A DNA stretch of 64,000 nucleotides from Rhizophagus irregularis. Its lineage: Eukaryota; Glomeromycota; Glomeromycetes; Glomerales; Glomeraceae. The DNA lies in assembly GCF_026210795.1 (NCBI RefSeq), contig NC_089429.1, forward strand, positions 7,535,001 through 7,599,000, read 5' to 3'. Below, one piece after another: positions 14,775-62,990 of this stretch. The notes under the pieces were generated by a model that was given only the letters and a program-made list of their open reading frames with translations, did no database searches and was not told where the DNA came from. Position numbers and translations under genes: made by a program. Position 1 is the stretch's first letter, and each line of letters opens with the position of its first letter.

Positions 14775-15480
14775 TTAATTGCATATAAAGTATATAAAGT
14801 ATAAAGTTTTAATTATATTATTTATTTCAAATTAGAATTTAATGTTATAATTTGTAGATGTACAATTTTAATTACAAGTACTATTTATTTTTTTAATTGT
14901 ATATAAAGTATAAAGTTTTAATTATATTATTTACTTCACCTCACCAGGAGTATATGTTATGCTTTCATTTTCCTAATATGATTCGGGGGATTTGCGGATT
15001 AACGATTATTGGAGCAGCGATTATTTTATATTTCCACCATAATGATAAAGGTGATCAACATCTTTAAATTGAACATCGGATCAACTGAATCTCATAATCC
15101 TTAACATTCATATGAAGTATGATCCGATGAAAATGAAATTGATTTCGTTGCAGTACTGTGGTGTACATTTTTAATAACAAGTACTATTTATTTTTTTAAT
15201 TGCATATAAAGTATAAAGTTTTAATTATATTACTATTTATTTCAAAATATCATATGTGCTATTCTATTTACGTATATGTTAGGCCTGATGCCTTCATTCT
15301 CCGAATATGATTCGGGGAAAGGATTTCCACCATAATCTTAGATGGGACTAAGCCACTAAGGGAGAATGTTCAATAGACAAAGGTGATCAACACCTTTAAA
15401 TTGAACATCGGATTATTCATATGAAGTAAGATCACATTCATATGAAGTATGATCCGATGAAAATGAGACAGATTCCATTG
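14775..15480. repeat. Tandem segmental duplication (~300 bp, two copies)
   Basis: The series 'attgcatataaagtata', 'aagttttaattatatta', 'tatatgtta', 'atatgattcgggg', 'tttccaccataat', 'aaaggtgatcaaca', 'ctttaaattgaacatcgga', 'catatgaagtatgatccgat' occurs twice, about 14,880-15,155 and 15,195-15,465. A third partial start lies at 14,777. The second copy carries extra sequence. No protein is evident. Confidence 0.75.
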
Positions 15481-15642
15481 CGTTTGCCCTTCGAGCCGGG
15501 AATGATAATGTTGAGTAGGAATTGTCTTCCCATGAAATGGATTTTCCCATAAAATGAGACAGATTCCATTGCGGTTGCCCTTCGAGTCGAGCATGATAAT
15601 GTTGAGTAGGAATTGTCTTCCCATGAAATGGATTTTCCCATA
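15461..15642. repeat. 91-bp direct tandem duplication
   Basis: Two near-identical units (15,461-15,551 and 15,552-15,642) run from 'aaatgagacagattccattg' to 'tggattttcccat', differing at a few bases. They lie directly after the larger duplication and share its first bases. Confidence 0.85.
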
Positions 15643-15772
15643 AAAATGGAAGACGAATTATATTCCATTTATTCGTCTCAGTCAAAGCCAATCTGAAGGC
15701 GCTGCACATATCGTACAATGACAGCCAAATCACTTTGGGAATTGCTCCAGAGATTCCGTAACAAATGGACGA

Positions 15773-16016
15773 AGGAAAAGGGAAAAGATGAAAATGAAAG
15801 GGAAAGAGGAAAGCAAAGGGGAAAGGGGAAAGAGAAGGGAAAAGGGGGAAAGCGAAGGAAAAGGAGAAGCGAAGGGGAAAGGGGAAAACGAAGGGGAAAG
15901 GGGAAAACGAAGAGGAAAGACGAAAAAAGCGAAAGGGAAAGGGGAAAACGAAGGGGAAAGAGGAAAATGAAAGGGAAAAGGGGAAGCGAAAAGGAAAGGG
16001 AAAACAAAAAAGCGAA
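15773..16016 (+). repeat. Long polypurine GGGAAA/GCGAAA tract
   Basis: About 240 bases are almost entirely purine on the plus strand, made of gggaaa, gcgaagg and ggaaaacgaa units. All frames on both strands are open here (up to 212 codons on the minus strand) because the motif has no stops. The encoded K/G/E/R or F/P/S/L runs are not evidence of a gene. Such a mirror-like purine tract could adopt triplex (H-DNA) structure; that is inference. Confidence 0.8.
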
Positions 16017-16869
16017 AGATAGTCGGGTACTGAACTCTCTGCAACGGACAATGTCAGGTCGAACCCCGAAGCGTTGTATATTTATCGGTGTATAAGAAAA
16101 TAACAAAATTTTGTTTTAATAATTCTTTGTTATTAAGAACATAAATTTTTGATACGTAAATAATTATAGTATTTAGTAAATATAAGAATTTGACGAAAAA
16201 AGTTTGTAGAAGTAATAAAAAAATTTTTTTTTTATATTAATAAAAATTTTATCAGAAGAGAAAAGAAATATTGGCACATATTTATTAAATAATATTACAA
16301 TTAATTACTAAATTTGGGAACAAAAAACTTTTTGATTAATGATCCAAATAAAAACCTGATCTACCTGCATGAAACAACAAAGAATTTTTTTTTTTTTAAT
16401 GGGTCAACGATTATGCAACTAATTAAGCCATTTGCCCATAAATAGAAATGAGCTACGGATAAAATTTTCTGATCGTGCTAAATATGGTTCGTTTCAACAA
16501 CAGTGATTTTTATTTTAAGCCTAGTGGCGTAGTAATAATAAATATTGTTTTTTTAAATAAAACATAATAAATATTATTATATAAAAAGTTCATTTATTAC
16601 TTAAAAAAGAATGAAAAACAGGGATGTATCCGGATTTTCAAATCCGAGTGTTACCAGGTTAAAATTTAATTTTAATTTATCAAATTATTATTATTTTGAA
16701 AAAAAAAAATTAGTCATACATAATACATTTGCTTTTTGTCAATTTTTTATTTTTGGAAAATTAATTCCACTTTTGTAGTTAATTCCACTTTTGTAGGAAT
16801 TTCAAAAGTTAATCGTTCCCAATTTTAAACGAAGAATTCGACGAAAGAAAATTAAAATAAATTTTAATG
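16017..16869. other. AT-rich DNA, no gene seen
   Basis: No convincing open frame, intron pattern or RNA motif. Poly-T and poly-A runs are frequent. Confidence 0.5.
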
Positions 16870-19438: not shown

Positions 19439-20545
19439 TGTCCAAACTGTGATAAAAAAAAAAGGATTTCGTATTCGTGGTGATGCATATTTGGTAGAAA
19501 ATTTTAAAAATTGGTCTGGCGGAAGGATAATCTGATCAAGAATACGCAACAATCCGCTAAAGAATGCATGCGCTATCTTGAGTGGATTTCTCTCAATTTG
19601 ATCTTATAAGGCATGCCGTAAGAATTGTTCAATGTTCATTTTCTACGATTTACTCGGCTATTTGGATGGAAGGTTCACCCTGGAAATTAGGATGATGGTA
19701 TTGAGATAGATATGGAATTATGGATACGTGGTAGTCATTTAAACAATTGGATAATTCATGGGATCTCAGTGATCACTTTATTAATCAAGTAGGTGTTTAA
19801 ATCTTTGCTATTAGCTTACTTTTAAAATAATTAATTATTTATTAAATTTAAATTTAATATTAAATAAATAGTTAATGTCTGGATAGCAAGGATTGCTTCA
19901 GTATAATAGTAATCGTCTTCAGGAATTATATCAGAGGATATATATCCTTTCTCGAAACACATGATAATTATTTTGGTCTGAGAGAAATTGTCAATCTCCT
20001 GTGGTTAATTTCGTCAGGATTATATAAAATTCATGAGTTAGGACTCGTTAATGGAAATTTACATGGAGGTAAACATTTTAGTTGAACATGATGGCCTAGT
20101 TTTCATTCCGAAGAAACTCAGACACGTGATCATTTTTCTGAAAAATTTTTATAGGGTGGATGTTGGATGCGAGATCCACTGACAAAGTTTACATGAACTA
20201 TTTAATTTAACACATATTCAGAAGAAATTTTGGGTTATACCATTGTTGTTCCTGAAAGGAAAGAAGTAAACAAACTCAAGCTTCCGATATTTACAGTTTT
20301 GGTATGATAATGTGTTCGTCCTTATTATGATACTAGAATCGTTCGTTCGTTAATTAATGATGTGGTTTTCGGATCAAGACCAAACCCGCTGGGTAAGACA
20401 CCACCTATTTATGTTCAATTGATGGGAAAATGTTTAGGTAAAGATCCATTTGAATGACCATTAACATCCGCTTTATTGGAAAAATAGGTTGCTGCCATCT
20501 GTGATGATCCTGAGCCATCGGATGTTTAGATAAAGCAGAAATCGC
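19439..20545 (+). pseudogene. Decayed tyrosine-kinase-like protein kinase of the Glomeromycotina type
   Basis: Pieces in family order occur in shifting frames: CPNCD (19,439), VENFKNWSGG (about 19,492), DNLIKNTQQSAKECMRYLEW (from 19,525), FSTIYSAIWMEG, the nucleotide-loop region (19,639-19,674), WLISSGLYKIHELGL then VNGNLHGG (19,963-20,070), VVPER at the APE position (about 20,245), YSFGMIM (about 20,293) and RPNPLGKTPPIYVQLMGKCL then GKDPFE (about 20,380-20,456), like the usual end of kinase subdomain XI. The catalytic HRD loop has become VNGN, so the catalytic Asp is lost. Several frameshifts and in-frame stops interrupt the chain, for example after DPFE. The CPxC plus NFKNW/YLEW leader is known from expanded kinase families in Rhizophagus-type fungi. 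It is an old, inactive copy. No active kinase was seen in this window. Confidence 0.85.
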
Positions 20546-20754
20546 AAAGTTTAATGAGGATATATGTATCATCAATAATATATTTATTACATAGTAATTC
20601 CATTTACTATAGTAGAAACTTAAATTCTATATAACTAATTAATCAAGGTTCGGAAATATTTATTTTGCTTCTAAAAACGATTTTCTAAGATTATGTTTTA
20701 TTTTTAAGTAGATTTTTTTTTTTACTCGAATAAAATAAATTTGTTAAGTCAACG

Positions 20755-21893
20755 AGTCCGGAGCGAAGCGAAGGACTATATACTATTCGTATCGGTTTCG
20801 TGAGTCGGTGCATACAATACATATGTTATGTGCTGGTAAGCAAATGTATCATGTTCATTATATAGATTGACTGCAAATGTCACGTCACATTATAATCAAA
20901 ACAAATAAGTCGTACAAAGAAAAAAAGCTTCTCACTTTCCTTTTCCTTCGATCTCTCTCTTCCCTTCCCCCCCTTCTCTCTTACTTTCCGTTGAAAAATT
21001 ATTTAACAAAACATTCGATTTTTTTGTCCTTTTAGTCTTCCCGGACGTGACATTTCAGTAATCTTTTATTTTTTTTTCTTAATTTTTTTTTATCTTAATG
21101 AAAGGTTTTTAACGTTCTTTTTTTTTCTTTCTTTAGATGGTTGCTTTTTAGCTCTTTTGACACAGAATCTTGGTGAGGAAATCTAGAAATATATTTTTTT
21201 TTCGTATTTATTCTAACGAAACTTTCAATTATTCCCTTTTTTAGATGGTTGATGACGTTTAAATCCAAACAGAGACTGAAAGAACCTCTTAGTTACCAGC
21301 AGTGCTAATGAAAAAAAGGTCTTTTACGCGTAGAATTTGTGCGGACTTTACCTTTTTTAGACTTTTTTCGTTTTCCTTTTAACGAACTGTTTCTAACAGT
21401 TTGTTGTCTTTTTTTTAGACGATACGTAGAATTTCGATGGCTAACCACACGATCTGATGTAATATTATTAGTTTTGTTTTTTTTTTATTTTAATGAACTT
21501 TGCTATAATACACTAGTTCTTTTTTATTTTGTAGGCGGTCGGTTTTTGACTCTTCGGCTTTTAATTCATCTTTTTTAACGAAATGGTTATTAAAGATGAC
21601 AATCACATGACACAAATAATTATCAAACAACTAACCAACTTCTCTCTTATTTACATTTCGTTATTTTCTTTCTTTTTTTTAAGCGGTTGGTTCCTCAGGT
21701 GTTATCGGGTTTTTTTTTAAAAAAAAAAATTTTAACAAAATGATCATTAATGCTTCGTTATTTTTTTCTTTATTTTAGGTGACCAGTTTCTCGAATCTCC
21801 TTGGTGGATTTCGGTAAAGATGGGAGTGTTAATATACACATATCTTTATTATGTGTTATTTGATCACGTGCCTTATCGCTCCGGAGTCCGGAC
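20755..21893. mobile_element. T-rich ~1.14-kb element with GTCCGGAGCG-type ends
   Basis: The left end is AGTCCGGAGCGAAGCG (from 20,755). The right end reads TCGCTCCGGAGTCCGGACT (21,875-21,893), an inverted match with a short duplicated GTCC-GGA. The left end also matches the right end of the 171-bp element at 7,498-7,668. The interior is an irregular array of T-runs ending in TTTTTAG followed by '(g/a)cggt' or 'atggtt', with TTAACGAAA-type boxes between. This resembles repeated splice acceptors. The 79-codon frame at 21,339-21,578 is translated repeat. The element appears non-autonomous. Confidence 0.6.
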
Positions 21894-21954
21894 TTAACAA
21901 AGGTTGCCGTTCTCTAGTTGTACTTTAAATTAGACTATACCATGGGACGCATTT

Positions 21955-22070
21955 GACTCACCGACAATTAATTCACCAACAATCTTTTCGCCGATAACCA
22001 CTTCACCGACAATCAAATGTTTCGCCGACATGATCATCTCACCAACAGGTCATCTCGTCAACACATATAA
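21955..22070. repeat. CACCGACAA / TTCGCCGA motif island
   Basis: 'ttcaccgacaat', 'ttcaccaacaat', 'tcgccgataac', 'ttcgccgacatga', 'ctcaccaacagg' recur at ~18-20-base spacing, like a degenerate short satellite. It sits just outside the right end of the preceding element. A related but distinct motif family is at 34,878-35,249. Confidence 0.7.
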
Positions 22071-42302: not shown

Positions 42303-44400
42303 CGGCGAAAAGTCAGGATTCCATTTATTATAATGTAATTGAAAGAATTTTAAGCAAGTTTCTTTTTCAAAATAACAAATTCAAAATTTACAGATACTTA
42401 GCCGAACGCATAAGCATAATGATCTTGACAAAAAATCACTTGAAACAATTCCTTTACGCGTCTAAATAATGAATTGCGCAGCATAACAATATGATCATCG
42501 AGGGCGTATTTTTTTGTTAGTTGTAATAGTGATCTAATTTCATATAATAAACACATATTTCGTAATATTAAATAATGAATAATTTTTTATCAATAAACGT
42601 TTTACATGACTTAAAAATATCCTACTGTATAATGAAGTTTATACATAAAAAACTTAATTCAAAATTCTTAATAGGTATTGACTGATGACTCGACTTGAGT
42701 CAATTCTTGAAAATCGGTTTGAAGTCAGCTTCGATTTTTATTATGGTTAAAATAGTTCCAAACCCAGGAGACTCAGAATCTTTTGAATTTAGATCGGTTC
42801 AACGATGCAAATCATCACGTGAAAATGTGAAATTACTCTCAAGAAACATTCAAGTTTGCAATTTCCAAATTAGAGTTTTTCGTTCAGCGAGTGATGAAAC
42901 ATTTCGGATTCGTTTCGCCTACTCATAAAGCTAATTCATTGATTTACGGAAAATAAATTGGATAATTTTCATGGTTTTAGTAGAGGCTGGATCCGTTATT
43001 CGTTTGAATTTTCAGTGGTCATAAAATTTATTTCGATTTTATATATAGCAATAGATTCGCTATATATATATTCAATTACTACAACATTACGAAAATAAAT
43101 TTTTAAAACTTTGTCATTATAGATGATCAAATTCCGTGAACATATGAATAAAAAAAAACACGGAATAAATTCTTTATAGGGATTAAATAATGAATAAATA
43201 AAATAAACTAAAATACGCAAAATAAGGCTGTTGTTTTTATGGCTTATACAGTAGTGCGGTAGACGGGTAGGGTATCAACAAGATAAAAAATCACGAAATC
43301 GCATCGGGTCGATCAATTGATCAATCATACTGCACATACTGCATTGCTACCTAATAAGCCATAATTCCGTATGATAAATTTCTTTTATTAGAAAATTTAT
43401 GGCTATTTATTAATAATTTTTATTACATAAGATAAAAAAAAAATTCGCGTCAATATTTTTCTTTTAAATAAATTTTTCCAAAAAAAAAAAAAAAAAAAAA
43501 AATACATTTAAAAATATGTCCAAAATAAATGTTTAATATTTAAAAAAAAATAATATGTCCAAAATAAATGTTTACCGGTATATCATATTAAAATTTTATT
43601 AAAAAATAAATTTATTCTATAATTACCCTATCAAATCCGTTCAGGACCTTTCTGCGTTCTTTAAGGGTTCTGCATCTACTTGTTTAACCGTAACTTATAC
43701 CATTACAAGCAAGTAATAGAAACCTTTGGGTTCGATTGGCATTTATCATAAAAAATTTTTTACTTTTTTTATTATGTAAGTATCTTATTATAATATTATC
43801 AATTTCATCTTTAAGATTACTTAATAATTTTTATTGATATTGCAGTTTAACTCCATGCCTACCTCAACCAAACTCAAGGAATCCTAGCGTAAAAGACAAA
43901 ATAATCATGGTACTTATGAGTTGGAGCGGGGTATTGGGGTATTAATATGAAGAAATTATCCCGCATTTCAAATAAATTATATTTAGTATAGCATATATGG
44001 ACATTTTTGATACTCCTATTATATAGGACGAGATATTGGGGTAGGAATGATCCCGCATTTCAAATAATATTATATTTAGTATAACATATATTGACATTTT
44101 TGATAATATGTTAGTAATATAAGGCAAAATTTCTTTTCAAAATATCGAACTAAACACAATAAATTTATTAAATAAAAAAAAAGTTTTTCCCAATAACTCT
44201 AATAAAAAACAATTTTTCGATTTAACATAATGTAAAAATTCCACCGTGGAACATTCTCTTTTCTTAAAAATGATCGGAACTCACGATCAAATTTTACGCA
44301 ACGGCACCCAGAAAAACAAATAGGATTACCTTAATAAACAGTGAAACGTGAGAGGTGTAACACATGATAAATAAAAAAAAGATCACGTGTTAAGTTCAAT
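42303..44400 (+). repeat. Element A, copy 2; outer part of the left palindrome arm
   Basis: It follows copy 1 landmark by landmark from 'aaaagtcaggattccattta' (42,309) to 'aacacatgataaataaa' (44,359), with many small indels. It lacks a ~100-base piece of copy 1 near 36,060-36,160 and the distal ~300 bases (37,700-37,985). At the point where copy 1 continues, this copy passes into the bromodomain module (about 44,400). The palindrome with copy 4 starts at 43,043, so 42,303-43,042 is single-copy relative to the right arm. Confidence 0.85.
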
Positions 44401-44733
44401 CACCAAAAAACTATGTTCGGTAACGGGTTTTTATTGGTCAGATAACATTATCTTAGAAAAATTTTTGCAGCTTTTTTCAAGAAAAAAAAATAGAAAGGGA
44501 ACATTTATCTTAAAAATACTTGTAGTTTTTATAAAAAAAAAATATAAAGAAACGTTTAACTTAATCATTTCTTATCACTATAGTCCATTTCGCTTTATAA
44601 AATTTATTGAAATAAATAAAAATAAAAATAAAATTTATTGAAAATAAATAAATAAAAAAAATAAATAAAAATTTAATTTAATTTAATTTATATGAAAATA
44701 AATAAAAAAAAAAAGATCACGCGATAATTTCAA

Positions 44734-46213
44734 TCAACGTGACTTAGGTAGTAGATTCAAAGATTTCAAAAAATTTTTATTGTCACGCCGTTGTTCATAT
44801 TCCGAAACCTTGAAAGGTTCTCGTAAGTATTCTTTAAAGAATTTTGGCCCAACTTTAAGATCGAGTGCCTTTTTATCAAGTAAGGCAACTCGGGTCCAAT
44901 ATCGTGCATCTGATAATTCGAACGTGTCGAGATCACGTAGCTCGCCAAATGGTTTTGAAGTGATCACATTACATCGCAATCGATTCTCACTGGCTTCATA
45001 AGAAACATCCTTCACAATTACGAGAATTGCATTGCGTTCATCTCTACATTTTTTAATATTCTTTGAACCCTTGGTGATGTATAGACGCGCAAAGTTGCAA
45101 TGCGTTTCTGTTGGTTGAAATTTAACCGGAGGGAGACTTTCACGTTCGAATGTGTCAAAAAGAGAACTTGACATCGGATCTAAACGTTCAGCGGCAGCAT
45201 AGGGAAGTTTTGCAACGTTACTACCACTCCTTGTAACTTGGAGGAACGAATACAAAGGTACTATGTATATTTTACTAATTTACGCACGAAAAAAAAAAAA
45301 CATTAACAAAAGAAACCGTTAAAAAAGGAAAACAAAAAAAACATGAATACCTCTTAATATTAATATTTGGTACTACTTTACAAACATCACCAAATTCTTC
45401 ATGAGGGAGTTTAGCACCAATCTGAGCAAGTGCGAAGTTCAATTTATTTATATCATGTGGTGGTTTCGAAAATTTCGTTGTTAAATTGACAAAACACGTA
45501 AGCATCGAATCTGCTTCTTTGAATATTACGGAATCTTTTTCATGGAATTTGAATGCATTATAAATAATCTGTGCTAAATCAGCATAGAATTTTGAAACTG
45601 CACAATCGTATTCTCCTGCCCAAAGTTTATGTTCAACTGTTATTAAATCCATCGGACGTGCGATGCGAAGGTGATAATTCCGAGCCGATTCGGGTACAGG
45701 ATTAATAAAAGGGCGACACCATCCTTGAGAAACAAAACAATCTAACATATACGTCCCGAGACGAAGCAATAGCTCACGACTTAATACTTGTTCGTTTAAA
45801 CAAAGCGATTCCAAATATTTTCGCAGCGCTATCGTCTGTTTTGGCTCTGGTTCAGGTACACCAGGAACTGGACGTACGTAACTTTCTTGTTTGTACTTAC
45901 TGGACGTCTTTAGAATCGACTTTATACGTATTATTTTCTTTTTTAATTGATTGCTAACGAAGGGCAGGCAAAATACACCATCGCTAGCAAAGCGCACGCG
46001 GAAGCCGCAGCTGTGTCCACTTACGCCCTGGCTTACGCGGTCTGGAATTACAGCTGGTTGTCCCGTAGAAACAATAACGTTCGTAACGACTACATTTTTA
46101 TTCTCTTTAGTACGAGAATAGCATATTCCGCTTCTCAATAATATTTGTTTTCTATTGTTTCTTCGTCCATTTACGCCTCGTGGAATTATGTTTTTTGCAG
46201 TAACTTTGGTCAT
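44734..46213 (-). CDS. Bromodomain protein, 452 aa, two exons (left-arm copy)
   Basis: Exon 1 is 46,213-45,382, exon 2 is 45,260-44,734. The intron (45,381-45,261) starts GTAAAG, ends ATAG and keeps the frame (...GDV-LPLYSFLQ...). Without splicing the first frame would run on into a low-complexity tail. Residues 1-115 are basic and of unknown fold. Residues ~148-245 form a bromodomain: WCRPFINPVPESARNYHLRI, RPMDLITVEHKLWAGEYD, then IIYNAFKFHEKDSVIFKEAD. PMDL of the ZA loop is present, but the Asn that normally contacts acetyl-lysine (the YN before the BC loop) aligns with His224. Residues ~278-452 are an unrecognised, probably folded region (NFARLYITKG, YWTRVALLDKKALDLKVG). The expected role is chromatin or protein binding in the nucleus; partner unknown. 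It is divergently paired with the gene at 46,498. It is nearly identical to the 59,561 copy. A strong GTAAGTAC donor in codons ~104-106 leaves an alternative splice possible. Confidence 0.8.
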
Positions 46214-46497
46214 AGCGAAAAAAACGGCGAAAATAATGTATAAAGTGAAGAAGAAAAAATGGGCTTATGATAAAGGAAAGAGAGTTATTGGCAAAAAAAA
46301 TGAAAATGAAAATGAAAGATTCAAATAATTTATATTTTTCCAGATGCGCGTATCACCCTAATTTTTTTAGGGGTAACCCCATTAAATTGGCACCACTTTG
46401 ATTGGTTAATATGAAATATCTTGTAATACACTAAAATTTGATCTATTTCGTGACGTAAATAAATTTACGCGCACTTCTTCTACTTAGCTAGTTTAAA
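46214..46497. promoter_or_regulatory. Bidirectional promoter between bromodomain gene and 99-aa gene
   Basis: The 284 bases between two divergent ATGs are conserved in both arms. They hold a dyad CGTAAAT-AA-ATTTACG (46,454-46,469) within TGACGTAAAT, which resembles a CRE/ATF-type bZIP site on each side. They also hold a hairpin CCCTAATTTTTTTAGGG (46,363-46,379) and a CCAAT box (ATTGG at about 46,402). No clear TATA box is seen. Site functions are inferred from the motifs only. Confidence 0.55.
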
Positions 46498-46843
46498 ATG
46501 TCTACTTACCCTGCATCTAACATTATTTTATTTGATCAAAATGGTACTCAATATACTTATACAATTATTAAAGAAGGATATTATCCTCAAATTGATATAC
46601 TTTGTTACACTTCTTCTTTAAGTGATTTAGGGAATGTTAATAAACTTTATTAGCATTTCTTTTGTCCTTTTTCTTTTGTAGGTACCTACTTCAAAGATTT
46701 TCGGTCTTAGATTCTTGAATGAAAGGCGTTGGGAATTGGAGTTAGGGGACTTTAGTAGAACCTTTACTAACGTTTCTTCATTTTTTTTAACCGTAAACCT
46801 TCTACCTGAACACTTTGAAAGATTTGATTTGGATTTTACTTAA
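46498..46843 (+). CDS. Small protein of unknown function, 99 aa, two exons
   Basis: Exon 1 is 46,498-46,635 (MSTYPASNIILFDQNGTQYT ... SSLSDLGN), exon 2 is 46,682-46,843 (VPTSKIFGLRFLNERRWELE ... LLPEHFERFDLDFT, TAA). The 46-base intron (GTTAAT ... TTTTGTAG) is phase 0. Its 5' end lies in an imperfect stem-loop (GAATGTTAATAAA / TTTATTAGCATTTC). It is short and the donor is not the commonest type; without splicing the frame stops soon after LGNVNKLY. The sequence is rich in aromatic and acidic residues, has no signal peptide or membrane segment, and no family is recognised. It shares a promoter with the bromodomain gene, so co-expression is plausible. The right-arm copy is frameshifted and a more diverged relic exists at 42.2 kb. 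Confidence 0.55.
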
Positions 46844-47875
46844 ACATTTTAACGTTTCATTTTTTAAGCTGAAATTGTTATTTTATTATATAGATTATTT
46901 TTGAATTTTGATATTTTTTTTTACTTAAAAATGCATAAATAAATATAATAAATGTGATTAGGAAATTTTTTTTTTTAATTTTAAAAACTTTTTTTTATTG
47001 AACATCAAAGTCTATGATCAAGTTATCTAATGGCAACTTTCATAAGCTCATATGTAAAGTATAGCAGTATATATAGAATTAAAAGTTTCTATAGATTTTC
47101 ACTATATTATACAACCTATCATACTTAATATCGTTTAACCGAAAATTATAAAAATTATAGCGATTCTATCATGTATAATATATTTTATTTAATCCAATTT
47201 TCCCATTTATCGTATAAATAAAATTTTATGAAATTTTAGTTATATTTTAACATATGTATCTTAAAAAGTTTCACGCGATGCATTAATAATTGAAGTCTAA
47301 AATTATTATCAAAAAATAGCGGATCACGATCTTTTCATATTTTTGACGATTTGATCTAGCCGTATAATAATTTGATTTATAAATTATGATGGTCTTGACA
47401 TTCTTCATAATTAAATAATTGAAAATATAATATTAAGTGAAAGATCGTTTCCGATCTTTGTTCCAATGCGACCAACATCTCGTCATAAAAGTTGTCTTTA
47501 ATATAAATTATGATAAATCTAATTAATTTGTTCCATCAATTCCCATCTAGTCATTTTTTTTATTTTAAATATTAAAATAAAAAGGGTTTTTTCGTAAATA
47601 TAACTCAACATGTATTCGCGTACAAGGATACTCTATTAAATAAACAAATATAAGATTATTTTTAAAATACTTAAGAATACATGTTCATATATAAATATAT
47701 TACCTTACGAGAGGATCATTCTTTTGTATCTAGTGGACACGGAACGGAACATCATTTTTCTATAGATTCAATTTGATGCCATCATTGTAACTAAACTCCC
47801 TAAATATATTGTAAGATATTCTTTACATAATAAACATCCTCCAAAACATACTTAATTTTGACAATCAACCACTTC
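46844..47875. other. AT-rich DNA inside the left arm, no gene
   Basis: This is matched in reverse at 57,894-58,926. The 80-codon frame of the right arm (58,293-58,535) has no intact equivalent here, so it is not a conserved gene. 'aatatcgtttaaccg' at 47,128 is shared with the relic at 41.9 kb. Confidence 0.5.
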
Positions 47876-48190
47876 TTATTGACTTCGGTTCGTAGTACAT
47901 ACAATCCTATAACAAGGATTTCCATTTTTTGTAAAGCTAAAAATTAATTATTAAATTTAATTTATTAAAAAATAAATATTATTATTATTCTTACTTATTT
48001 CAAACGTTTTACGCTAGTCTTTCTTGTTCATCGTTATTTTCATCCTCAGTTTCAAGCTCCGCAATTGCATCGATTTTGAGACACGTTAAGAACAGCCTTC
48101 ATAATATCATCTGTATAAGTTTAGTTGCAAAAGTTAATGCAAGTATTCTGCACCCTCTCATTCCATCTATCATCACTCCTATTTCCCGTC
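47876..48190 (-). pseudogene. 3' end of an unknown gene (left-arm copy)
   Basis: A short acidic frame KIDAIAELETEDENNDEQER then LA is followed at 48,012 by GTAAAACG. A TTTTTAG acceptor at 47,937 would splice it to FTKNGNPCYRIVCTTNRSQ and a stop at 47,876-47,878. Upstream (to about 48,190) a different frame reads DDIMKAVLNVS, so a shift separates the two parts. The same arrangement is present in the right arm, with K for E in one place. It is probably the decayed terminal exons of a gene; no start or family is seen. Confidence 0.35.
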
Positions 48191-48239
48191 TCTAATTTTT
48201 AAATTCTCATAAAAATATTCGATTTCGTTTGATAAATCT

Positions 48240-48730
48240 TAAAAAAAAAACCCTTCCTGAGGAAAATTTAATATCTATTATAAAAAAAAAATCAATTCCA
48301 CCGACATAAATTTAGATTAAAAGAAATCCCTTCTCCGTCTCTCATTAAAATTATGAGAGGAAAATTTAATATTTATTGTAAAAAAAAAACCAATTCCACT
48401 GACATAAATTTATATTAAAAGAAAACCCTCCTCTATCTCTATTTCCTCTCATTAAAATTATGAGAAGAAAATTTAATTTAATATATATTATATATATTAT
48501 ATAATAAAAAACCAATTCCACCGACATAAAGATTAAAAAAAAACCTTCCTTTCCGTCCCTACTAATCTAAAATAACATAAAAAAATATTCGATTTAATTT
48601 AATAAATTTTAAAGAGAAACCCTTCCTTCGTCTCTATTTCCTTATGAGAGAAAATTTAATATCTATTGTAAAAAAAACTAATGCACCCGACTTAATAAAT
48701 ATTAAAGAAATCTTTTTTTTTCCGTCTCTA
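48240..48730. repeat. Degenerate ~110-bp tandem array (left arm)
   Basis: Three to four units hold '(c)caattccac(c/t)gacataaa', 'aaaagaaa(a)ccct', 'tctctatttcc', 'cattaaaattatgagag' and 'aaaatttaatat(c)tatt'. The right arm carries the same array inverted at 57,030-57,560. Confidence 0.75.
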
Positions 48731-49015
48731 ATCTTTTAAATTATCATAATAAAAAATATTAATAAATGAAAAATTTTCACATTATCTAAAGAAATTTTAA
48801 TTCTTTTAACGTCCTAAATAACATCGCACCAACATTCTTTTCGTTGGGTAAGATGAATTTTCGAACAAGTACCAAGCTTCGAATGCTCAATCTGCTTCTC
48901 AATACTTTCTCTTTTATTATATTATTAAAAATAATAAAAGTATCAAATTAGATAATATCAACTTTTAATAAAAATTCGAAAATTGGTACAAGTAAAGGCG
49001 ACAATAGTTGATATA

Positions 49016-49984
49016 TATTCTCAGAAAGTCGCAAATTGACAATAGGACATGGCTATTGTTGTGACAAAAATGTCTTCAAGAGGAAAGGAGTCGAAGCCAT
49101 GTTAGCCGTCTCTTCCTGGAATACTAATTATTTTTCACGTATAAATCTTTGTTCTTTCAAAATCTGTTTCCTTGATGTGTCCTTTACGTCCACGTGTGAT
49201 GAAAAACCTTTCTATATTATATGAGATATCTACATTCTTATAACGGCTATAAGATTCATTCCCATCATGATTAACAATCTCCAAATGTTGTAGATTTATT
49301 AAATTTAAAAATGAACCAGGATCGATAAGTGGTGTTGTCATAAATATTTTTAATCATGTCGTTTCTGGAACGTAGTCTACCAAGATTAAAAATAGTATTT
49401 GTTTCACAGATCCAAAATTCCAATAATATGAATACAAGTGAAATAGATATGATTACAAATGAACAAATTAATTAAAACATTTCATCTGAAAAAATTTTTC
49501 CATGTCCGACTGTAAGTTTTCCACCTTTATCACGGGGATGCTCTTCTGCCTTGAAAGGCAATTTACAAACTAAGCAAATAAAAGGTTATTTTAATGATTT
49601 TTTTTTTTATCAATTTAGATATAATTATAATTTACTTACGTTAAAGGTCCACCAACTAAATTTTGTAGTTATTGAAATTATTGAAATTGAGAATAACACA
49701 TAAATAAAAATCTTTTAGTTATAATTGATCATTATTTTATAAATAAATAAAATAAAATAAAATAAATTTAGATACCTTTCTACTAGTTTTCAATCCAACC
49801 TTTTTTCCTGTGGCCACCCTATTGCTAAATGTTTTAAACCTAATTTCTTTCATATTTTTTTGAAGTCAGTGTCAAATTTTTAGATATATGCAATAACTTT
49901 GCCCTTTTCTCTCGCTCCCTTTCCTTCATTCTCTCTTCCATATTTCTTTAATTGCATTTTTTCATCATCTCAATATAATAATAA
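49016..49984. other. Rearranged edge of the palindrome spacer
   Basis: This is a mosaic. 49,372-49,500 ('accaagattaaaaatagtat', 'gtttcacagatccaaaattc', 'catctgaaaaaa') matches 54,738-54,865 in direct orientation. 49,535-49,650 ('agaagagcatcc' and 'cttttatttgcttagtttgt' on the minus strand) matches 54,570-54,700 in inverted orientation. So a small inversion split one relic. The opposing frames at 49,036-49,224 and 49,135-49,341 are unrecognised. Confidence 0.5.
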
Positions 49985-56766: not shown

Positions 56767-57029
56767 TATATATCAACTATTGTCGCCTTTACTTGTACCG
56801 ATTTTCGAATTTTTTATTAAAAGTTGATATTGTCTAATTTGATACTTTTATTATTTTTTAATAATATAATAAAAGAGAAAGTATTGAGAAGCAGATTGAG
56901 CATTCGAAGCTTGGTACTTGTTCGAAAATTCATCTTTCCAAACGAAAAGAATGTTGGTGCGATGTTATTTAGGACGTTAAAAGAATTAAAATTTCTTTAG
57001 ATAATGTGAAAATTTTTCATTTATTAATA

Positions 57030-57560
57030 TTTTTTATTATGATAATTTAAAAGATTAGAGACGGAAAAAAAAGATTTCTTTAATATTTATTAACGGTTGC
57101 ATTAGTTTTTTTTACAATAGATATTAAATTTTCTCTCATAAGGAAATAGAGACGAAGGAAGGGTTTCTCTTTAAAATTTATTAAATTAAATCGAATATTT
57201 TTTTATGTTATTTTAGATTAGTAGGGACGGAAAGGAAGGTTTTTTTTTAATATTTATGTCGGTGGAATTGGTTTTTTATTATATAATATATATAATATAT
57301 ATTAAATTAAATTTTCTTCTCATAATTTTAATGAGAGGAAATAGAGATAGAGGAGGGTTTTCTTTTAATATAAATTTATGTCAGTGGAATTGGTTTTTTT
57401 TTACAATAAATATTAAATTTTCCTCTCATAATTTTAATGAGAGACGGAGAAGGGATTTCTTTTAATCTTAATTTATGTCGGTGGAATTTTTTTTTTTATA
57501 ATAGATATTAAATTTTCCTCAGGAAGGGTTTTTTTTTTAAGATTTATCAAACGAAATCGA
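57030..57560. repeat. Degenerate ~110-bp tandem array (right arm)
   Basis: Inverted counterpart of 48,240-48,730, with 'tttatgtc(g/a)gtggaattgg', 'ctcataattttaatgagag' and 'gaagggttt' in each unit. The 69-codon frame 57,256-57,465 is translated repeat. Confidence 0.75.
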
Positions 57561-57589
57561 ATATTTTTATGAGAATTTAACGGGAAATA

Positions 57590-57893
57590 GGAGTGATGAT
57601 AGATGGAATGAGAGGGTGCAGAATACTTGCATTAACTTTTGCAACTAAACTTATACAGATGATATTATGAAGGCTGTTCTTAACGTGTCTCAAAATCGCT
57701 GCAATTGCGAAGCTTGAAACTGAGGATGAAAATAACGATGAACAAGAAAGACTAGCGTAAAACGTTTGAAATAAGTAAGAATAATAATAATATTTATTTT
57801 TTAATAAATTAAATTTAATAATTAATTTTTAGCTTTACAAAAAATGGAAATCCTTGTTATAGGATTGTATGTACTACGAACCGAAGTCAATAA
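57590..57893 (+). pseudogene. 3' end of an unknown gene (right-arm copy)
   Basis: Mirror copy of the relic at 47,876-48,190. The acidic segment KIAAIAKLETEDENNDEQER then LA ends at GTAAAACG (57,757). The TTTTTAG acceptor ends at 57,832 and would give FTKNGNPCYRIVCTTNRSQ, stop 57,891-57,893. An in-frame TGA lies 30 bases upstream of the acidic segment. Conservation of both splice signals in the two arms reflects recent duplication and does not prove function. Confidence 0.35.
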
Positions 57894-58926
57894 GAAGTGG
57901 TTGATTGTCAAAATTAAGTATGTTTTGGAGGATGTTTATTATGTAAAGAATATCTTACAATATATTTAGGGAGTTTAGTTACAATGATGGCATCAAATTG
58001 AATCTATAGAAAAATGATGTTCCGTTCCGTGTCCACTAGATACAAAAGAATGATCCTCTCGTAAGGTAATATATTTATATATGAACATGTATTCAAGTAT
58101 TTTAAAAATAATCTTATATTTGTTTATTTAATAGAGTATCCTTGTACGCGAATACATGTTGAGTTATATTTACGAAAAAACCCTTTTTATTTTAATATTT
58201 CATTAAAATAAAAAAAATGACTAGATGGGAATTGATGGAACAAATTAATTAGATTTATCATAATTTATATTAAAGACAACCTTTATGACGAGATGTTGGT
58301 CGCATTGGAACAAAGATCGGAAAAGATCTTTCACTTAATATTATATTTCAATTATTTAATTATGAAGAATGTCAAGACCATCATAATTTATAAATCAAAT
58401 TATTATACGGCTAGATCAAATCGTCAAAAATATGAAAAGATCGTGATCCGCTATTTTTTGATAATAATTTTTAGACTTCAATTATTAATGCATCGCGTGA
58501 AACTTTTTAAGATACATATGTTAAAATATAACTAAAATTTCATAAAATTTTATTTATACGATAAATGGGAAAATTGGATTAAATAAAATATATTATATAT
58601 GATAGAATCGCTATAATTTTTATAATTTTCGGTTAAACGATATTAAGTATGATAGGTTGTATAATATAGTGAAAATCTATAGAAACTTTTAATTCTATAT
58701 ATACTGCTATACTTTACATATGAGCTTATGAAAGTTGCCATTAGATAACTTGATCATAGACTTTGATGTTCAATAAAAAAAAGTTTTTAAAATTAAAAAA
58801 AAAAATTTCCTAATCACATTTATTACATTTATTTATGCATTTTTAAGTAAAAAAAATATCAAAATTCAAAAATAATCTATATAATAAAATAACAATTTCA
58901 GATTAAAAAATGAAACGTTAAAATGT

Positions 58927-59274
58927 TTAAGTAAAATCCCAATCAAATCTTTCAAAGTGTTCAGGTAGAAGGTTTACGGTTAAAAAAAATGAAGAAACGT
59001 TAGTAAAGGTTCTACTAACGTCCCCTAACTCCAATTCCCAACGCCTTTCATTCAAGAATCTAAGACTGAAAATCTTTGAAGTAGGTACCTACAAAAGAAA
59101 AAGGACAAAAGAAATGCTAATAAAGTTTATTAACATTCCCTAAATCACTAAAAGAAGAAGTGTAACAAAGTATATCAATTTGAGGATAATATCCTTCTTT
59201 AATAATTGTATAAGTATATTGAGTACCATTTTTTGATCAAAAACAATAATGTTAGAGGCAGGGTAAGTAGACAT
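58927..59274 (-). pseudogene. Frameshifted copy of the 99-aa gene (right arm)
   Basis: Mirror of 46,498-46,843, 348 bases against 346. The start ATG (59,274-59,272) and first ~14 codons are kept (MSTYPASNIIVFDQ). An A-run after GATC has six As where the left copy has four, shifting the frame by two bases within codons 14-16. The intron and exon 2 are otherwise preserved. Either this copy is dead or the run is a sequencing or assembly error. Confidence 0.6.
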
Positions 59275-59560
59275 TTTAAACTAGCTAAGTAGAAGAAGTG
59301 CGCGTAAATTTATTTACGTCACGAAATAGATCAAATTTTAGTGTATTACAAGATATTTCATATTAACCAATCAAAAGAGGTGCCAATTTAGTGGGGTTAC
59401 CCCCTAAAAAAATTAGGGTGATACGCGCATCTGGAAAAATATAAATTATTTGAATCTTTCATTTTCATTTTCATTTTTTTTGTCACTAACTCTCCTTCCT
59501 TTTTTATAAGCCCATTTTTTCTTCTCTACTTTATATATTATTTTCGTCGTTTTTTTCGCT
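59275..59560. promoter_or_regulatory. Bidirectional promoter, right-arm copy
   Basis: It keeps CGTAAAT-TT-ATTTACG (59,303-59,318), the CCCTAAAAAAATTAGGG hairpin (59,402-59,418) and the ATTGG/CCAAT box. It differs from the left copy by scattered changes in T-rich runs. The last ~130 bases also occur as a lone relic at 32,431-32,510. Confidence 0.55.
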
Positions 59561-61038
59561 ATGACCAAAGTTACTGCAAAAAACATAATTCCACGAGGCG
59601 TAAATGGACGCAGAAACAATAGAAAACAAATATTATTGAGAAGCGGAATATGCTATTCTCGTACTAAAGAGAATAAAAATGTAGTCGTTACGAACGTTAT
59701 TGTTTCTACGGGACAACCAGCTGTAATTCCAGACCGCGTAAGCCAGGGCGTAAGTGGACACAGCTGCGGCTTCCGCGTGCGCTTTGCTAGCGATGGTGTA
59801 TTTTGCCTGCCCTTCGTTAGCAATCAATTAAAAAAGAAAATAATACGTATAAAGTCGATTCTAAAGACGTCCAGTAAGTACAAACAAGAAAGTTACGTAC
59901 GTCCAGTTCCTGGTGTACCTGAACCAGAGCTAAAACAGACGATAGCGCTGCGAAAATATCTGGAATCGCTTTGTTTAAACGAACAAGTATTAAGTCGTGA
60001 GCTATTGCTTCGTCTCGGGACGTATATACTGGATTGTTTTGTTTCTCAAGGATGGTGTCGCCCTTTTATTAATCCTGTACCCGAATCGGCTCGGAATTAT
60101 CATCTTCGCATCGCACGTCCGATGGATTTAATAACAGTTGAACATAAACTTTGGGCAGGAGAATACGATTGTGCAGTTTCAAAATTCTATGATGATTTAG
60201 CACAGATTATTTATAATGCATTCAAATTCCATGAAAAAGATTCCGTAATATTCAAAGAAGCAGATTCGATGCTTACGTGTTTTGTCAATTTAACAACGAA
60301 ATTTTCGAAACCACCACATGATATAAATAAATTGAACTTCGCACTTGCTCAGATTGGTGCTAAACTCCCTCATGAAGAATTTGGTGATGTTTGTAAAGTA
60401 GTACCAAATATTAATATTAAGAGGTATTCATGTTTTTTTTGTTTTCCTTTTTTAACGGTTTCTTTTGTTAATATATTTTTTTTTTTCGTGCGTAAATTAG
60501 TAAAATATACATAGTACCTTTGTATTCGTTCCTCCAAGTTACAAGGAGTGGTAGTAACGTTGCAAAACTTCCCTATGCTGCCGCTGAACGTTTAGATCCG
60601 ATGTCAAGTTCTCTTTTTGACACATTCGAACGTGAAAGTCTCCCTCCGGTTAAATTTCAACCAACAGAAACGCATTGCAACTTTGCACGTCTATACATCA
60701 CCAAGGGTTCAAAGAATATTAAAAAATGTAGAGATGAACGCAATGCAATTCTCGTAATTGTGAAGGATGTTTCTTATGAAGCCAGTGAGAATCGATTGCG
60801 ATGTAATGTGATCACTTCAAAACCATTTGGCGAGCTACGTGATCTCGACACGTTCGAATTATCAGATGCACGATATTGGACCCGAGTTGCCTTACTTGAT
60901 AAAAAGGCACTCGATCTTAAAGTTGGGCCAAAATTCTTTAAAGAATACTTACGAGAACCTTTCAAGGTTTCGGAATATGAACAACAGCGTGACAATAAAA
61001 ATTTTTTGAAATCTTTGAATCTATCTAAGTCACGTTGA
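59561..61038 (+). CDS. Bromodomain protein, 451 aa, two exons (right-arm copy)
   Basis: Exon 1 is 59,561-60,392, exon 2 is 60,515-61,038 (TGA). The intron 60,393-60,514 (GTAAAG ... ATAG, 122 bases) is phase 1 and gives GDV-LPLYSFLQVTRSG. The start is the ATG opening the frame after a T-rich leader, the same as in the other copy. Domain layout is the same: basic N-terminus, bromodomain ~148-245 with PMDL present and His in place of the acetyl-lysine-contact Asn, and an unrecognised C-terminal region of ~175 aa. Differences from the left copy by eye: Pro/Leu near 124, Met/Ile near 156, Ala/Asp at 211, Arg/Gln near the C-terminus, and one codon fewer in the tail (NLSKSR against NLLPKSR). Both copies keep an open frame through two exons, which suggests recent duplication or continued function. 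Antisense frames of 64 and 73 codons are shadows. Confidence 0.8.
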
Positions 61039-61429
61039 TTGAAATTATCGCGTGATCTTTTTTTTTATTTATTTTCATATAAATTAAATTAAATTAATTG
61101 AATTTTTATTTATTTTATTTATTTATTTTCATATAAATTAAATTTTTATTTATTTTTTTTATTTATTTTCAATAAATTTTAGTAAATTTTATTTTTTTTA
61201 TTTATTTATTTTCAATAAATTTTATTTATTTTTATTTATTTTCAATAAATTTACGTTTCTTTATATTTTTTTTTATAAAAACTACAAGTATTTTTAAGAT
61301 AAATGTTCCCTTTCTATTTTTTTTTCTTGAAAAAAGCTGCAAAAATTTTTCTAAGATAATGTTATCTGACCAATAAAACTCGTCAAGTCACGTTACCGAA
61401 CATTTTTTGGGGGTGTGTTCTTGGTTCGT
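61039..61429. other. AT-rich 3' flank of the bromodomain gene
   Basis: Runs of 'tttatttattttcaataaat' and 'attaaattaaatt' form a simple-sequence region, mirrored at 44,400-44,733 with different unit numbers. The AATAAA-like strings could serve as polyadenylation signals. Confidence 0.5.
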
Positions 61430-61734
61430 TGATTGAACCTAACACGTGATCTTTTTTTTTTATTTATCATGTGTTACACCTCTCCCGTTTCACTGTTTAG
61501 TTATTAAGGTAATCCTATTTGTTTTTCTGGGTACCGTTGCGTAAAATTTGATCGAGAGTTCCGATCATTTTTAAGGAAAGAGAATGTTCCACGGTGGAAT
61601 TTTTACATTATGTTAAATCGAAATTGTTTTTTATTCGAGTTATTGGGAAAAACTTTTTTTTATTAATAAATTAATTGTGTTTAGTTCGATATTTTGAAAG
61701 AAATCTTGCCTTATATTACTAACATATTATCAAA

Positions 61735-62990
61735 AATGTCAATATATGCTATACTAAATATAATATTATTTGAATGCGGGATCATTCCTTCATACTAATA
61801 CCCCAATATCCCGTCCTATATTGACACTATGCATTTTTTCTTTGGTTTTTACGGGTAAATAAAAGAGTAGTTGGGAATTACAAAAAGTACAAGAAATGAA
61901 AGACTAGAAATAAAATTTGCAAATTTGTCATTATAATACAGTGCGGTACCTCTATAATAGGTACCCCCTATATCTTGTGATCTAATGGTCAGAATTTTAT
62001 AAAATTTTAAAATTAGATAGCTTTTAAAAAGATAAATACATTAAGCAAATAAAAAAATTTTCTCAATTTTTTTTGCTGACATAATACAAAATCACATGAC
62101 TTAAAATAAATTTGATTGGCTGATGCAATACCTAATGTTAATTAGAATTATGCATAATTTTTTATATATAATTTATTATTTATTATAATTATTTAAAGTA
62201 ATTTGATTAAGTATATTATCAGGAACTTTTCTATGGGATTTATATTTTTTTTAGCAAGTTTTCCCAAGATTCCTTTTTGAGAAATAGATATAATATAATT
62301 TGTAATAAATAAAAACTACCAAAATTTTTTTTGAATTTTTTTTCAAAATTTTTTTAACAAAGCATGGGTAAGTTTATAAGCTAAAATGATTTATTTGAAT
62401 AAGCACTATCAAATGATTATTTTTTTTTTATGTTACACAAAAATCACTTATTCTCAAATTTTTCCCATCATAATAAATTACCCGAACTTCAAACTTATGT
62501 AGCACTAGCAAAATTTATTATTTTTTAATCTAACCCGATAAGTTTAAAAGCTCTTGATATGCTTTATTAAAATTATCGGTTAGAATTTTAAAATATTATT
62601 TTTTGCTAATGTGACATCTTTTTGAAAATGTCACATTATGACTATAAAATTGGGTTGGTTATAGAGGTACCGCACTGTAGGAGTATCAAAAATGTCCATA
62701 TATGCTATACTAAATATAATTTATTTGAAATGCTGGATAATTTCTTCATACTAATACCCCAATATCCCGTCCTATATAATAGGGATATAAAAAATGTCCA
62801 TATATGCTATACTAAATATAATTTATTTGAAATGCGGGATCATTCCTTCATACTAATACCATAATATCCCGTCCTATATAATAGGAGTATAAAAAATGTC
62901 CATATATACTATACAAAATATAATTTATTTGAAATGCTGGATAATTTCTTCATGCTAATACCCCAATACCCCGCTCCAACTCATAAGTAC
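61735..62990. repeat. ~102-bp tandem unit of element A, expanded in right arm
   Basis: Units with 'aatgtccatatatgctatac', 'tttgaaatgc(g/t)gg', 'ttc(a/t)tactaatacc' and 'atatcccgtcctatataata' start near 61,735, 62,691, 62,793 and 62,895. The left arm has two, and copies 1 and 3 have about two each. The first unit is separated from the rest by the inserted miniature element. Confidence 0.85.
61939..62677. mobile_element. 739-bp miniature element, CAGTGCGGTACC ends, TA target
   Basis: The left end is CAGTGCGGTACCTCTATAA (61,939-61,957); the right end is the inverted TTATAGAGGTACCGCACTG (62,659-62,677). TA lies at 61,937-61,938 and 62,678-62,679. The interior is AT-rich and non-coding. The ends and TA duplication fit the Tc1/mariner/pogo superfamily. 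It is absent from the corresponding place in the left arm (about 44,020). Confidence 0.85.

Follow-up and report, generated by a model that had tools for sequence, protein, structure and literature searches.

Thirteen of 61 human bromodomains lack the asparagine that anchors acetyl-lysine and carry tyrosine, threonine or aspartate instead, and histidine is not listed for any human bromodomain in the available part of that survey (PMC5977933). For BRD4(1), the accessible part of a surface plasmon resonance study gives the peptide binding left as 0.2% in N140A, 10.8% in W81A and 27.8% in Y139F (PMC3979416). In the arbuscular mycorrhizal fungus Rhizophagus irregularis, two gene copies were singled out by an earlier note, made from the DNA letters, as encoding a bromodomain protein with histidine at the position of this asparagine. 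The genome searched here comprises 146.7 Mb in 32 contigs, and C1, the longest one seen, is called chromosome 1 in keeping with the size-based numbering of PMC10234402.

The window, that is, the whole stretch of 64,000 nucleotides that was analysed, corresponds to C1:7535001-7599000 in genome numbering. Its features relevant to the gene pair are as follows (window positions):

44734-46213, minus strand: copy 1 gene, open, with one intron
45351-46213, minus strand: copy 1 exon 1, an open frame for residues 1-287 plus part of residue 288, holding the N-terminus and the bromodomain
45275-45350, minus strand: copy 1 intron as revised here, 76 bases, GTATTC...AAATTAG; copy-to-copy indels confined to it, next 45 bases in frame in six copies
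44734-45274, minus strand: copy 1 exon 2, up to and including the stop, encoding the unplaced C-terminal region
45509-45748, minus strand: copy 1 bromodomain (PF00439), residues 156-235
45542-45544, minus strand: codon of copy 1 His224, acetyl-lysine Asn position by alignment to solved bromodomains
59561-61038, plus strand: copy 2 gene, open, with one intron
59561-60423, plus strand: copy 2 exon 1, open frame
60424-60500, plus strand: copy 2 intron, 77 bases, from copy comparison
60501-61038, plus strand: copy 2 exon 2 including the stop, from copy comparison
60026-60265, plus strand: copy 2 bromodomain (PF00439), His at the equivalent site
44021-49017, no strand assigned: inverted duplication arm 1, 95.9% identity over 5088 columns to 61821-56767
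56767-61821, no strand assigned: inverted duplication arm 2, 95.9% identity to arm 1

The exon boundaries given above depart from those of the earlier note, which had proposed an intron of 121-122 bases and a 452-aa protein. In copy 1, this 121-base intron was conserved above the level of synonymous sites. Among six aligned copies (four on chromosome 1, one on contig C27 and one on C18), all intron indels fall inside its first 76 bases, whereas the final 45 bases have no gaps and continue the open reading frame; the odd conservation is therefore explained by 45 coding bases lying inside the supposed intron. The revised intron ends in AAATTAG after a T-rich run. Judged by this comparison of copies, an intron of 76 bases (77 in copy 2) fits better and the longer one is less likely, so that the predicted proteins comprise 467 aa for copy 1, 466 aa for copy 2 and 463 aa for the first copy of a tandem pair at C1:7642000-7649500 (locus L002). 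The C-terminal region had been described as not placeable in any family, and it is still without a Pfam or PDB relative: neither database gave a match at E 10, and NCBIfam gave none for the whole copy 1 protein at E 1.

The bromodomain itself is no accidental match. The PF00439 profile scored 58.8 bits (E 5.3e-16, cut-off 21.7, residues 156-235) against the 452-aa model and 58.7 bits (E 5.6e-16, same cut-off) against the corrected 467-aa one; both scores are significant. With phmmer, 224 distinct solved sequences matched the copy 1 protein at E up to 1, and a five-row profile of the family matched 263 at E up to 0.01; of each set, the best 60 were listed. In both kinds of alignment, NAFKFH of the query is paired with NCRKYN of CECR2 and NAEKYY of ASH1L, and His224 is aligned to the Asn with which CECR2 anchors its ligand, and to a Tyr both in ASH1L and in the first PBRM1 domain. 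Matching of residues by the published helix-B pattern (available part of PMC3326523) agrees with this, as D212, N219, F223 and H224 are equivalent to D128, N135, Y139 and N140 of BRD4(1), respectively, and the helix pattern is kept residue by residue. Since Asn219 corresponds to N135, the other conserved asparagine of helix B, it cannot be the missing anchoring residue. By these alignments, His224 sits exactly at the acetyl-lysine Asn position, as had been claimed for both window copies. Another motif that was said to be kept, PMDL, is indeed present in the chromosome 1 copies, whereas C27 and C18 have LMDL.

In the whole genome, PF00439 matched 65 times, and 60 of these matches cover the anchoring site: 52 carry Asn, 6 His and 1 Lys, the latter at the edge of its match, and 1 is ambiguous (two calls of the script were changed by eye, one to Asn and one to not covered). 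All six histidines belong to the family described here. A seventh copy, on C7 and outside the 65 matches, reads NAFKFH as well, and an eighth, on C6, is out of frame at the site. With His found in 7 of 7 family copies readable at the site, the residue is older than the window duplication and is a property of the family, not of one damaged copy. As for the remaining bromodomains, about 45 of the 65 matches belong to a single BDF-like family (44 assigned by a motif script and 1 by eye), with loci at C3:5190768, C5:5197462, C16:2817839, C15:1744293 and others (L063-L066). The four of these loci that were opened all have a frame of 491-550 aa in which an Asn-type bromodomain is followed by a GYSDIF...LELKY region. 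Pfam calls only the bromodomain above cut-off in these frames; the GYSDIF...LELKY pattern may be a PD-(D/E)XK nuclease signature.

The family gave 34 matches in a protein search of the genome and 36 in a DNA search, many of them decayed fragments. Four copies on chromosome 1 are nearly full-length. Copies 1 and 2 of the window share 99% DNA identity. The tandem pair in L002 (C1:7643453 and 7646680; 96% DNA identity) lies about 47 and 51 kb past copy 2 in a tandem 2.4-kb duplication that holds the third and fourth gene copies, the fourth having a single-base frameshift after the His. More distant are the copy on C27, with 86% DNA identity, and the one on C18, with an in-frame stop; further fragments were found on C28, C6, C7, C9 and elsewhere.

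The longest relative is the one on C27. Its bromodomain lies within a 968-aa open frame with Asn-rich and basic stretches and a TEPPSI repeat, and the predicted gene (L001:1827-6669) has six exons and five GT-AG introns that would encode 1471 aa: an Asn-rich basic N-terminus, the His-bromodomain, the unplaced region and a protein kinase, so that the C-terminal region of the short proteins stands between bromodomain and kinase here. The kinase (PF00069) has the HRD and DFG motifs and a score of 56.7 bits (cut-off 31.7); its glycine-loop end scores poorly, the N-lobe is poorly aligned, and the ATP-binding Lys of strand beta-3 was not identified. Elsewhere in the genome, the kinase exon had nothing above 36% identity (150 scored of 639 candidates). 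By eye, KRGRP in the C27 protein resembles an AT-hook motif; Pfam called none there, and this reading was dropped. At the DNA level, copy 1 resembles C27 only in the bromodomain and the region that follows it, plus 76 bases farther upstream, and the chromosome 1 genes have neither the long N-terminus nor the kinase. Because the fragments on C28 and C18 also match C27 only up to a point before the kinase, the latter would have been either lost in the other copies or gained by C27.

From these results, we favour, with a probability of roughly 0.55, the following reading. Both short genes of the window are intact and stem from a recent duplication; they belong to a small R. irregularis family that has the His-bromodomain as its hallmark, and its longest member, C27, has an Asn-rich, basic N-terminus and a kinase in addition. 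The short chromosome 1 genes, with only the bromodomain and the following region, would be fast-evolving "reader-only" paralogues that became numerous through segmental duplication in a rapidly changing stretch of chromosome 1. The bromodomain would have given up canonical acetyl-lysine reading and would serve as a protein-interaction module; it may place the kinase in the C27 protein, and the short copies may act as its kinase-less partner or competitor.

The most serious rival, though an unlikely one in our estimate, is that duplication left mere gene pieces on chromosome 1, which are heading for decay, are open only because they are young and have no function of their own. The many degraded fragments of the family agree with this, as does the frameshift in one of the four chromosome 1 copies. 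Copies 1 and 2 moreover differ at 11 of 1401 coding positions and at 17 of 2356 positions of the adjoining noncoding stretch 46641-49017; with noncoding DNA diverging equally, purifying selection could not be claimed from this pair. Between copy 1 and C27, 45 synonymous and 107 other changes were counted (omega 0.64, dN 0.14; 75 transitions and 81 transversions), a near-neutral ratio that does not differ significantly from neutrality if the synonymous fraction is set at 0.26 (p 0.18), so selection inferred from these substitutions was likewise rejected, being not significant with a realistic transition rate.

Against decay speak the lengths of indels and the absence of stops. When copy 1, copy 2, the first L002 copy and C27 are compared, all six indels inside exons have lengths divisible by three; of the noncoding indels between the two arms of the window, this holds for 2 of 29 (Fisher p 1.7e-5, for two sets drawn from different pairs). 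Along the longer path from copy 1 to C27, about 152 substitutions produced no stop, where 5 to 7 were expected (chance 0.0005-0.005). Within chromosome 1, there is also an excess of synonymous changes (19.5 versus 21.5 others; p 0.0005-0.014, depending on the neutral fraction assumed). Indel lengths, missing stops and this excess show that coding was maintained in the past, and not necessarily that there is a present function; the substitution ratios show little constraint. We read the genes as probably kept coding until recently and now evolving fast, and the rapid evolution proposed for the family is borne out by dN 0.14 against C27 and by its many decayed fragments.

The other questionable point is what the domain would bind. 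Three binding positions of BRD4(1) are changed in the family sequence: Asn to His, Tyr to Phe, and Trp to Arg, so that the WPF shelf reads RPF, with Pro and Phe kept. The hallmarks of a canonical acetyl-lysine reader are thus incomplete, the anchoring Asn being absent from all seven readable copies and the WPF shelf not intact. With neither the Asn nor the Trp of the WPF shelf in place, canonical acetyl-lysine reading by the His-bromodomain appears doubtful. One could still suppose that the imidazole supplies the hydrogen bond of the Asn and that the proteins are chromatin readers binding acyl-lysine. Equivalents of Y97 (Y180) and of the gatekeeper Ile (I230) are both kept, human bromodomains with Tyr or Thr at the site exist, and other hydrogen-bond donors have been proposed as substitutes in the available parts of PMC3326523 and PMC5977933. 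However, the Trp is lost to Arg in addition, N140A and W81A lower the peptide binding of BRD4(1) to the values quoted above (accessible part of PMC3979416), and in the open-licence literature we recognised no paper on an Asn-to-His replacement or on this Rhizophagus bromodomain family; the one paper with the wording "replaced by histidine" concerns another residue position. We regard this supposition as improbable.

Somewhat less probable still is a bolder version of the partner-or-competitor idea, according to which the short chromosome 1 proteins would be natural decoys: a His-bromodomain with the adjoining region and no kinase, competing with the C27 bromodomain-kinase for a nuclear target. 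The number of gene copies would then set the access of the kinase in a lineage-specific switch, and the ligand of the His pocket would be something else than acetyl-lysine.

As to how the copies arose, the window pair is a 5-kb inverted segmental duplication with arms of 95.9% identity, in line with the duplicated pair noted before. The suggestion that a selfish element spreads with these genes, as its cargo or its core, is very improbable: several copies exist and the 5' flank is partly matched on C6, C24, C13 and C5, but the length of shared flank differs from copy to copy (5 kb for the window pair, about 2 kb for L002 and about 1.1 kb for C27), the intron has been retained, and among the listed open frames no long one beside the pair looks transposition-like. 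The earlier interpretation is supported for the unusual bromodomain, the unplaced C-terminus, the duplicated pair and the fast evolution, and finds no support for the selfish locus, the pair being a segmental duplication.

Fragments of the gene and of the adjoining noncoding arm are concentrated in two spans, C1 6.07-7.89 Mb and C6 4.0-5.4 Mb. Counting the query, 20 of 36 gene matches fall within C1 7.25-7.82 Mb or C6 4.12-5.38 Mb, and the noncoding arm has 32 of its 66 matches within C1 6.07-7.89 Mb or C6 4.01-4.88 Mb; the matches are not independent of one another. The idea that window DNA as such is linked to C6 was considered and dropped, as the matches of a control stretch (window 20000-22000) were scattered: of 43, only the query and one at C6 4.51 Mb fell within the spans. 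The available text of PMC10234402 describes two loci, about 2 Mb in size, in which genes are youngest and small-RNA loci most numerous; these might be the C1 and C6 spans. Elsewhere in the window, at 15416-16115, overlapping open frames on both strands come from a low-complexity charged repeat.

If the protein is made and folded, the family would offer a natural test of what a bromodomain does once His has replaced its anchoring Asn. In this obligate plant symbiont, the family also shows genes being duplicated, fused or truncated, and decaying at the same time. On C27, the predicted fusion of a bromodomain to a kinase would be one for which we recognised no counterpart in fungi or kinomes in the open-licence literature.

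Compared with known systems, the domain resembles the PF00439 family in its significant score, helix-B pattern, Tyr97 equivalent and, in the chromosome 1 copies, PMDL, and differs from it in the His and in the Arg that replaces the WPF Trp. The best single solved domain among the matches listed was CECR2, with TAF1, PBRM1, RSC4 and BPTF also present; the ZA loop is one residue shorter than that of CECR2, and family-profile and hhalign comparisons yielded no clear subfamily. Like the atypical human bromodomains PHIP(2) (Thr), ASH1L and the first domain of PBRM1 (Tyr) and MLL (Asp), it has lost the anchoring Asn; unlike them, it carries His, and this residue marks a whole fungal gene family. With BET/BDF proteins it shares the bromodomain (hhalign probability 93.6 against an R. 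irregularis BDF-like domain on C14), whereas the 467-aa protein has one PF00439 match, no second, and no Pfam match to the BET extra-terminal domain. The C27 kinase is like other protein kinases in its HRD, DFG and score above cut-off, and unlike the usual ones in being fused, in the predicted gene model, to a bromodomain. The family is accordingly an unusual, fast-changing member of the well-known bromodomain family and not a new system.
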